A stretch of DNA of 64,000 bases from Jiangella sp. DSM 45060 (GTDB lineage: Bacteria > Actinomycetota > Actinomycetes > Jiangellales > Jiangellaceae), in contig NZ_LT629771.1 of assembly GCF_900105175.1 (NCBI RefSeq), positions 3,596,001 through 3,660,000 of the forward strand. Direction: 5' to 3'. Positions 18,681 through 20,743 of the stretch are shown here, in pieces (within the stretch, counting starts at the first letter, position 1; each line of letters opens with the position of its first letter). Below the pieces are notes generated by a model. That model ran no database searches. It was not told the origin of the DNA and worked only from the letters and a program-made list of their open reading frames with translations. Position numbers and translations under genes: made by a program.

Positions 18681-19979
18681 GTGGAGATCACCGTGCCCGA
18701 TGCCGATGCCGACGCCACCGTGCCCGACGTCCCGCCGCCGCCCGCCGCCCCCGACCCCGCGGCGCCGCCGGTGGCCAGTTCGCGCGCCGATCTGCGGCAC
18801 CGGTTGAACACGGCCACGGCCGGCTTCGAGGCGCCGCTCGCCGCCATCGACATGGAGGCGTGGGACGTCAACGCCGCCGACCTCGTCAGGCGCGCGGCGG
18901 GCAAGCCCATCCGGGTGGCCAGCAAGTCGCTGCGCAGCCGCATGCTGCTGCGCGACGTGCTGGGCCGCGACGGCTTCCACGGCGTGCTGGCGCTGACGCT
19001 GTCCGAGGCGCTGTGGCTCGTGGGCACCGAGCTCAGCTCCGACGTCGTCGTCGGCTACCCCACCGCCGACCGCCGCGGCCTGGCCCGGCTGGCGGGCGAC
19101 GAGGAGCTGGCGGCCGGCATCACGCTCATGGTCGACGACGTCGCACAGCTCGACCTCGTCGACGCCGTGGCACCGACCGACGGGCGGGTCGAGATCCGGG
19201 TCTGCCTCGAACTGGACCTCTCCTGGCAGCCGCTGGGCGGGCGCATGCGCGTCGGCGCGAAGCGCTCGCCGCTGCACACCGTCGACGACCTCGTCCGGCT
19301 GGCCCACGCGGTGCAGTCGCGGCCGGGATTCCGGCTGGTCGGGGTCATGGGCTACGAGTCGCAGATCGCCGGCGTCCAGGACGCACCGCCCGGGCGCGGC
19401 TGGCGCGGGCGCATGGTGCGGTCGATGCAGAAGCGGTCGTGGGCGGAGCTGTCCGAGCGGCGGGTCGAGGCGGTCGAGGCGGTGCGCAAGTTCGCCGACC
19501 TCGAGTTCGTCAACGGCGGCGGCAGCGGCTCGGTCGAACGCACGGTCTCCGACGTGTCGATCACCGAGGTCACAGCCGGGTCGGGGCTGCTGGCGCCGCG
19601 GCTGTTCGACGGCTACACCAGCTTCTCGCCGCGCCCGGCGGCGTTCTTCGCGGTGCCCGTGGTGCGCCGGCCCGGCCCGGGCGTCGTCACCGTGCAGGGC
19701 GGCGGCTACGTCGCCAGCGGCGCCGCCGGCGACGACCGCCTCCCGGTGCCGTGGCTGCCCGAGGGCCTGACGCTCGACAAGGACGAAGGCGCCGGCGAGG
19801 CGCAGACCCCGCTGCTCGGCTCCCCCGCCGACGACCTCGCCATCGGCGACCGCGTCTGGTTCCGGCACGCCAAGGCCGGCGAGCTGGCCGAGCGGTTCGA
19901 CCAGTACTACCTCGTGCGCGGCGAGCGGCTGGTCGACACCATCGCGACGTACCGCGGGGACGGCAAGACGTTCCTGTAG
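18681..19979 (+). CDS. PLP-dependent alanine-racemase-N-domain / D-threonine-aldolase-like protein
   Basis: The 432-residue protein has a Pro/Ala-rich disordered N-terminus (about 40 residues). A type III PLP barrel follows, with the PLP lysine in PIRVASKSLRSRMLLRDV. Substrate and phosphate-binding segments are VLALTLSEALWLVGTELSSD and FVNGGGSGSVERTVSDVSIT. The C-terminal beta domain contains GVVTVQGGGYVASGAAG, where D-threonine aldolases and D-serine dehydratases carry metal ligands. Likely activity is on D-amino acids, but the substrate is not decided. The GTG start has AAGGA 6 bases upstream. Its stop codon abuts the 161-bp inverted-repeat element. Confidence 0.8.
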   Translation: MEITVPDADADATVPDVPPPPAAPDPAAPPVASSRADLRHRLNTATAGFEAPLAAIDMEAWDVNAADLVRRAAGKPIRVASKSLRSRMLLRDVLGRDGFHGVLALTLSEALWLVGTELSSDVVVGYPTADRRGLARLAGDEELAAGITLMVDDVAQLDLVDAVAPTDGRVEIRVCLELDLSWQPLGGRMRVGAKRSPLHTVDDLVRLAHAVQSRPGFRLVGVMGYESQIAGVQDAPPGRGWRGRMVRSMQKRSWAELSERRVEAVEAVRKFADLEFVNGGGSGSVERTVSDVSITEVTAGSGLLAPRLFDGYTSFSPRPAAFFAVPVVRRPGPGVVTVQGGGYVASGAAGDDRLPVPWLPEGLTLDKDEGAGEAQTPLLGSPADDLAIGDRVWFRHAKAGELAERFDQYYLVRGERLVDTIATYRGDGKTFL

Positions 19980-20139
19980 GGGGTGTCTGACGGGTATTGA
20001 CGGATGCGGGCGGCGTCCAGGCGTCGGTCCAGCAAGGCGGAGGAGGAGGTCGATGCGGAGCCATCGAGCGACGACGACAACGCCGCTGGTCGGCGTCTGG
20101 GCGTCGATCCGCGCCGCCGAAGACCCGTCAGCCACCCCC
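19979..20139. mobile_element. Candidate 161-bp MITE-like inverted-repeat element
   Basis: The ends form 17-base inverted repeats: GGGGGTGTCTGACGGGT at 19979-19995 matches the reverse complement of 20123-20139 with one mismatch. The interior is itself imperfectly self-complementary, for example the CCAGGCGTCGGTCCAGC region against the reverse complement of the CTGGTCGGCGTCTGGGCGT region. The whole could fold as one long hairpin. It starts at the last base of the preceding stop codon and ends 4 bases before the proposed kinase start. No clear target duplication is seen. It may be a mobile miniature element, or a structured terminator. Confidence 0.5.
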
Positions 20140-20143
20140 TGAA

Positions 20144-20743
20144 GTGGGCGTTCTCTCCTTCGACGCGCTGGCCGAGCGGGTCCGGTCGCTGCCGCCGCGG
20201 GCCGGCTCGACCGTCGTCGTCGCCGTCGACGGGCCGGCCGGGTCCGGCAAGACGACGCTGGCCGGGCGGCTGGCGGCGCGGCTCGACGACGCGCCCGTCC
20301 TGCACATGGACGACCTCTACCCCGGCTGGGACGGGCTCGCGCACGCCGCTGCCGCCGTCGCGGCCGAGGTGCTGGCGCCGCTGGCCGAGGGGCGTCCGGC
20401 GCGGTACCGGCGGTGGGACTGGCACGCGGACCGCTGGGCGGGGTGGGTGGACGTTCCCGCCGCCCCGGTGCTTGTCGTCGAGGGCAGCGGCAGCGGGTCC
20501 ACGCCCGGCGCGCCGTACCTGTCGCTGCTGCTGTGGGTCGACGCGCCGCACGACCTGCGTCAGGCGCGCGGCTTCGAGCGCGACGGCGACGGCTTCCGGC
20601 CGCACTGGTCGCGCTGGGCCCGTCAGGAGGAGGCGCTGTTCGCGGCCGAGCGCACCCGCGAGCGGGCCGACCTGCGCGTCGACACCGCGTCGCCGGTCCC
20701 GCACGACCCCGCGCGCGAGGTCGTCGCCGAATCTCGACTCTGA
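20144..20743 (+). CDS. Uridine-kinase-like P-loop protein
   Basis: About 199 residues with a Walker A VAVDGPAGSGKTTLAGRLAA and DDAPVLHMDDLYPGWDGL, the pattern of uridine kinase-like nucleoside/pantothenate-type kinases. VVEGSGSGSTPG follows where uridine kinases have the base-binding loop. I place the start at GTG 20144, because the longer in-frame start at 19997 would read through the inverted-repeat element and yields low-complexity Gly/Arg sequence. There is no convincing ribosome-binding site, so the start remains open. The substrate is not certain. A MOSC gene follows after 31 bases. Confidence 0.8.
   Translation: MGVLSFDALAERVRSLPPRAGSTVVVAVDGPAGSGKTTLAGRLAARLDDAPVLHMDDLYPGWDGLAHAAAAVAAEVLAPLAEGRPARYRRWDWHADRWAGWVDVPAAPVLVVEGSGSGSTPGAPYLSLLLWVDAPHDLRQARGFERDGDGFRPHWSRWARQEEALFAAERTRERADLRVDTASPVPHDPAREVVAESRL

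Follow-up and report, generated by a model that had tools for sequence, protein, structure and literature searches.

An intergenic inverted-repeat element of Jiangella sp. DSM 45060 with signs of both mobility and RNA-level structure

Within the window, by which we mean the whole 64,000-nucleotide stretch of Jiangella sp. DSM 45060 DNA that was analysed, a 161-bp inverted-repeat element lies between two forward-strand reading frames. The features of the locus are as follows.

18681-19979, + strand: upstream ORF with an alanine-racemase-N-like match (E 4e-5, slightly under the Pfam cut-off)
19975-19978, + strand: left flank TGTA, adjoining the start of the element
19979-20139, + strand: entire element, 161 bp, with + denoting the strand whose fold contains the conserved core and the G-U pairs
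19979-19995, + strand: left terminal inverted repeat (TIR), GGGGGTGTCTGACGGGT; 15 of the first 18 bases match a 1019-bp insertion sequence (IS) of the same genome
20032-20045, + strand: 5' half of the conserved core, GCAAGGCGGAGGAG
20046-20072, + strand: apical hairpin separating the core halves, variable in sequence and length and covarying in relatives
20073-20083, + strand: 3' half of the conserved core, GACGACAACGC
20123-20139, - strand: right TIR, GGGGGTGGCTGACGGGT as read on the - strand
20140-20143, + strand: right flank TGAA, adjoining the end of the element
20144-20743, + strand: downstream P-loop kinase-like ORF (NF005115, E 2e-51), with a GTG start as in congeners

An earlier note on this DNA had placed a near-palindromic element at 19979-20139, and these coordinates are correct. 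The TIRs, 19979-19995 against 20123-20139, pair at 16 of 17 positions, and an inverted-repeat finder extends the arms to 21 nt at 90% identity. As the note had it, the first base of the element is the G of the upstream TAG stop, the TA coming from the flank, and the final base lies 4 bases before the GTG at 20144. The imperfect self-complementarity described for the interior is also real and spans the entire length, with the correction that it includes an asymmetric loop region. Because the element is an imperfect palindrome with such a loop, its two strands are not equivalent. Folded as RNA, the + strand has a minimum free energy of -110.8 kcal/mol (z -8.7) and the - strand one of -81.6 kcal/mol (z -3.5), neither being equalled by any of 200 shuffles; with DNA energies the two strands of this copy are nearly equal (-51.1 for + vs -47.1 for -).

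The element is absent from the same junction in all 11 of the other genomes of the genus that were searched. In five of these the upstream stop overlaps the kinase GTG (TAGTG; for example CCTGTAGTGGGTG in L231), and in the remaining six stop and GTG are separated by 3 to roughly 75 unrelated bases, whereas the window reads CCTGTA-[161]-TGAAGTGGGCG, with about 165 bp between stop and GTG after the insertion. The suggestion that the element had displaced or replaced the original start of the kinase gene does not hold, as the same GTG is kept and is found directly at the junction in those five congeners. What has likely been lost in the window is an ancestral overlap of the upstream stop with the kinase GTG, and splitting this stop/start junction with a strong hairpin has likely led to a local loss of translational coupling. 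The TGTA and TGAA flanks are possibly an imperfect, ambiguous 4-bp target duplication at an ancestral TGTA-GTG junction. In another species (L238, G003), a different short inverted repeat, GATCATGTGAGTTCT...AGAACTCACATGATC, occupies the junction of the same two genes.

The Jiangella sp. DSM 45060 genome (G000; 7.49 Mb, one contig) contains 10 full-length copies at 83-100% identity and a second subfamily of 15 copies, with 68-73% identity across the aligned part, plus two fragments. BLAST found the element in 30 of 99 genomes and a covariance model, built on 44 diverse sequences, in 23 of the 60 genomes around G000, with G000 counted in both cases; a closely similar element is carried by J. muralis (L181). 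Fourteen other insertions in G000 were compared with four congeners: for 11 of them, one or more of the congeners shows a short empty junction; L038 is ambiguous, and for L031 and L046 no junction was seen among the 30 loci inspected. Sites turn over fast, since across the 97 copies fetched for seven genomes a shared site is seen in three pairs only, and one genome (G011) has seven identical copies. Exact CTA/TAG flanks are present in 45 of the 97 copies, and empty sites, such as GCCTAGGAAGGC compared with GCCTA[..]TAAGAAGGC, are compatible with duplication of either a 2-bp TA or a 4-bp CTAG.

As judged by comparative genomics, therefore, the element is mobile, and the miniature inverted-repeat transposable element (MITE) proposed earlier is borne out by its multiple copies, empty sites, CTAG-like flanks and a resident IS whose ends match; the checks proposed with it gave 25 copies plus fragments in G000 and the empty site in 11 of 11 congeners. 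The element is 161 bp long, below the 500 bp taken as the upper limit for MITEs. The note had set against mobility a terminator or a structured RNA, the latter to be recognized by a single copy at one place in all relatives together with covariation of stem bases. The copies are many and their sites differ, the covariation is strong (see below), and no T-run or terminator-like site was found. Since strong covariation does not exclude mobility, MITE and structured RNA both hold, and the terminator is not supported.

Several copies depart from the common form. The flanks of L042 (G000) are TTA/TAA, complementary to each other, where the empty site of a relative has CTAG, and those of L100 (G004) are TCA/TGA, complementary though not CTA/TAG; both look as if the two arms had been corrected against each other. 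In L154, L215, L027 and L257, two cores, whole or partial, follow in close succession as tandem or dimeric elements, and four Streptomyces copies (L115, L117, L188 and L213) carry additional sequence in the left arm, as if another small element had inserted there.

A resident autonomous element with ends in common is present in G000, in the form of five identical 1019-bp IS copies with the TIR GGGAGTGTCTGACGGATC and CTA/TAG flanks. This IS encodes DUF4096 and DDE_Tnp_1 in two overlapping frames, with NF033580 (IS5_3) above its cut-off in both, and we take this partner to be IS427-like. The ends and the CTAG-type target are thus common to the IS and the window element (15 of 18 end bases); the window element differs in having no transposase, and past the ends the interiors are unrelated, with 10-13 of 42 bases matching, which is the chance level. 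A second case comes from Streptomyces sp. CCM_MD2014. Its 945-bp IS, in which NF033580 likewise exceeds its cut-off in each frame, agrees at 19 of 22 terminal bases, and at 14 of the 40 that follow, with the elements L139, L172 and L187 from three other Streptomyces. Against the sole comparable element end in its own genome (L131, G115) it matches at 8 of 22. In six of the nine element-bearing genomes of the genus, G000 among the nine, no relative of the IS5 transposase was found at E <= 1e-20, nor did the listings for G004, G009 and G010 include a TIR pair of IS size, so that in most cases the mobilizing enzyme may have been lost. Mini-elements of 56-83 bp with the same kind of TIRs also occur (G000:C1:4251302-4251357, L060; G009:C1:3930853-3930932; G115:C1:1024986-1025068). 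Because they are too short to hold the TIRs plus a core of about 52 nt, the TIRs alone may be mobile.

The interior is marked by an asymmetric 12 + 11 nt motif, CAAGGCGGAGGA...GACGACAACGC. Across 70 covariance-model hits, which need not match the exact core pattern and include AT-rich genomes, 19 of its 23 positions are at least 95% identical and the other four 70-95%. On the modelled strand, the G-C pairs of the core are interrupted by G.A/A.G and G.A/A.A mismatches and closed by the variable apical hairpin, and the arms flanking the core diverge almost completely across lineages, yet still pair. The exact pattern was found in at least 119 stretches of genome contigs. By record titles, 110 of the 119 matches listed are from Actinomycetota, including Streptomyces, Kitasatospora, Nocardia, Gordonia, Rhodococcus, Nocardioides, Micromonospora, Rathayibacter and Leucobacter; eight are from Clostridiales, Lachnospiraceae, Oscillospiraceae, Gracilibacteraceae or Peptococcaceae, and one is from a Myxococcales MAG. 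The Myxococcales member is the weakest, because its 3' core half deviates and its - strand is the better folder. When genomes were picked for holding the core pattern, the model had hits in all 18, with two or more in 17. One Oscillospiraceae MAG (G099, the source of L204) has 126 model hits in 1.9 Mb, or about one per 15 kb. Among 196 genomes sharing a class with an Oscillospiraceae MAG (itself included), 10 gave model hits.

There were four matches in viral contigs and none in E. coli genomes or phage records. Related elements were found in 67 Streptomyces plasmid records; for the 40 listed of these 67, 31 have no gene under the match, four have one and five are unannotated, and in all six plasmid records that were opened (two being the same locus) the element is intergenic. 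A protein-coding core (in one frame it reads K-A-E-E ... D-D-N-A) was considered and rejected: dividing the distance between the halves by three leaves remainders of 0, 1 and 2 in 65, 24 and 111 of 200 elements, so that 135 do not keep the frame, and AT-rich genomes, too, leave the third codon positions unchanged.

The pairing of the arms is conserved well beyond what shuffling yields. For the 70 hits, the covariation score was 0.645 compared with 0.176 shuffled (slid versions reaching at most 0.13), pairing cells made up 88.5% compared with 62.0%, and 468 cells were altered on both sides compared with 152.6, none of these values being reached in 500 shuffles, although the figures are inflated because the alignment was fitted to the covariance model. 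Two further measures discriminate less. Pairs showing at least one double change numbered 20, against 18.6 in the shuffles, of which 52 of 500 did as well, and pair types numbered 75, against 68.4 (3 of 500). A free structure prediction on a MAFFT alignment gave double changes in 18 of 25 pairs.

The question is then whether this structure acts in DNA or in RNA. An ordinary DNA-level MITE, in which the core is a DNA site (a transposition enhancer or a site for a host protein) or the hairpin forms in single-stranded DNA and RNA is uninvolved, has in its favour that the TIRs, the CTAG-like flanks and the matching resident IS5 element are all DNA-level features. If the element were purely a DNA palindrome, G-U and A-C oppositions should be equally frequent, each being the opposite-strand reading of the other. 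With equal scoring we counted 671 G-U and 168 A-C, an excess of about 4:1, and G-U exceeded A-C in 117 of 125 elements (three showed the reverse and five were equal), which speaks against a DNA-level structure over the long term. The near disappearance of the strand asymmetry of the window copy with DNA energies does the same, and among 44 elements the mean strand difference falls from 16.9 kcal/mol with RNA rules to 2.5 with DNA rules and G-T pairs off. However, the + strand is the better folder in 43 of these 44 under DNA rules just as under RNA rules, as a DNA-level reading would have it.

Recent changes are also less one-sided than the long-term record. The consensus stems of genus subfamilies A and B (48 and 41 distinct copies) hold 11 and 8 G-U pairs, respectively, and no A-C, a count biased by the stem register, for which the fold of the + strand was used after adding single mismatches. 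Distinct one-sided events at Watson-Crick pairs numbered 12 G-U (25 cells) and 10 A-C (24 cells) in A, and 8 G-U (16 cells) and 3 A-C (3 cells) in B, next to 14 and 11 double compensating events. The resulting 20 G-U to 13 A-C is a weak bias, which fits a DNA-level MITE better than the 4:1 ratio does. Copies thus drift with little strand bias, whereas the propagating lineage keeps the fold, and for this reason we favour a role of the RNA in the element's own spread or persistence.

Transposition through single-stranded DNA of the IS200/IS605 or REP type was rejected, as replication strand shows no clear bias of the kind it would predict, which also counts against a single-stranded DNA hairpin as the working form of the element. 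In a hand count that assumed circular chromosomes with the terminus opposite dnaA, the + strand was on the lagging template for 9 of the 25 G000 copies and for 9 of the 15 G009 copies listed out of 20. Taking these lines of evidence together, we regard the ordinary DNA-level MITE as rather unlikely, though it is the best of the alternatives.

We consider it improbable that the hairpin is instead kept for the host, as an mRNA 3'-end stabilizer, processing site or terminator in the manner of NEMIS or ERIC, with mobility merely distributing it. Gene context, for which direction was called by a GC3-based heuristic of the analysis, gives this idea some encouragement: in 160 copies, convergent (47) and antisense tandem (48) arrangements are the commonest and divergent ones are rare (14), with 30 sense tandem and 21 without a call. 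The long duplex also makes an RNase III-like target plausible. On the other hand, the sense orientation to the upstream gene is not favoured in tandem contexts, which is why a 3'-UTR function in that orientation was set aside; an intrinsic terminator was rejected for lack of a T-run or terminator-like site; and both the fast turnover of sites and the weakly pair-preserving one-sided changes of resident copies fit poorly with service to a neighbouring gene. No sigma-70-like promoter was found, and this, like the lack of a bias to lie sense to the upstream gene, counts against our own RNA reading. A SINE-like retroelement, whose structured RNA is the mobile intermediate copied by a reverse transcriptase, would suit the selected whole-element RNA fold, the conservation of the core independently of the ends and the six of nine element-bearing genomes without an IS5 transposase relative, but is very improbable given ends that match IS5 TIRs in G000 and, across strains, in Streptomyces, and flanks that resemble YTAR duplications.

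Searches against known classes gave no match to the element. Rfam, with which the comparison with known RNA classes was made, returned two hits at E <= 1 for window positions 19500-20600, each far under the gathering score, and none for 12 loci totalling 94,664 bases; the Transposase-resistance and TwoAYGGAY motifs (Weinberg 2010, PMC2864571) were considered by name alone. No account of the element was found in the consulted portions of the openly accessible literature, including PMC1590033 and PMC2267715, and six papers contain a string of core letters, all on eukaryotes to judge by their titles and the beginnings of their abstracts.

REP/BIME units are 20-40 bp long and carry a GTAG or CGTC tag. 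To our knowledge, Correia/NEMIS and ERIC elements have been described from single genera or families. According to the consulted sections of two reviews (PMC10969869, PMC2229807), the latter two resemble our element in being small, TIR-bounded and intergenic, with an RNA hairpin formed by the whole element, TA-type ends and presumed mobilization in trans; for Correia/NEMIS the likeness we draw is one of size and layout alone. The window element differs from both in its near-invariant core in two phyla, its strand-specific structure and its lineage-dependent TIRs, and neither a cross-phyla core, strand specificity nor independence of core and ends appears in those sections. The Caulobacter CIR repeats, as described in part of PMC2229807, are likewise intergenic (about 110 bp) and RNA-structured, with a motif conserved among species of one class, but they have two arms and a GANTC motif, whereas the window element forms one long hairpin, whose internal loop is GGAGGAG/CGACGACAAC, and its ends are IS5-like. 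REP/BIME sequences with their RAYT transposases, in the excerpts of PMC3733652 consulted, share the character of dispersed intergenic palindromes; the window element is no 20-40 bp tagged palindrome and instead has 161 bp with TIRs and a core, and no clear replication-strand bias.

MITEs are usually viewed as scraps of an IS, short-lived and with an interior that is not conserved. The present element, unlike these, does not give the impression of a transient remnant left by deletion within a single IS. We suggest that it probably belongs to a non-autonomous lineage mobilized in trans by IS5-family transposases, whose + strand RNA hairpin aids its own persistence. The assignment of the enzyme to the IS5 family rests on the matching ends, and strand-specific G-U pairing together with covariation points to a + strand that would function as RNA in its folded form. 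The terminal repeats would be recognized in trans by IS5-family (IS5_3/IS427-like) DDE transposases, with insertion at CTAG-like sites, and the ends would vary by lineage, in G000 resembling those of the resident IS5-type element. The interior would be old and structured, forming a long hairpin whose internal-loop core has stayed nearly invariant across phyla. Selection would be visible on propagating lineages, through the fixed G-U pairs of the subfamily consensuses, more than on resident copies, and the RNA may aid the persistence or spread of the element itself, for example by its core binding a protein, and would not serve the neighbouring gene. The window copy would then be one such insertion at a stop/start junction, uncoupling translation of the two genes.

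More tentatively, and as a possibility that we would not yet press, the element could represent a cross-phylum mobile class of structured RNA, made up of non-autonomous transposons, that has kept its fold and core through very long periods while its ends shifted towards those of different IS5-type elements, the RNA, bound by a transposase or a conserved host protein, being needed for transposition or survival. If true, the element would be a DNA transposon that has no gene of its own and is assisted by RNA, and a large unannotated family of structured nucleic acids would be present in Actinomycetota and Clostridia-type genomes. The defined 12 + 11 nt motif would serve as bait for the protein that reads the core, directly opening the question of whether RNA participates in the movement of a bacterial DNA element.
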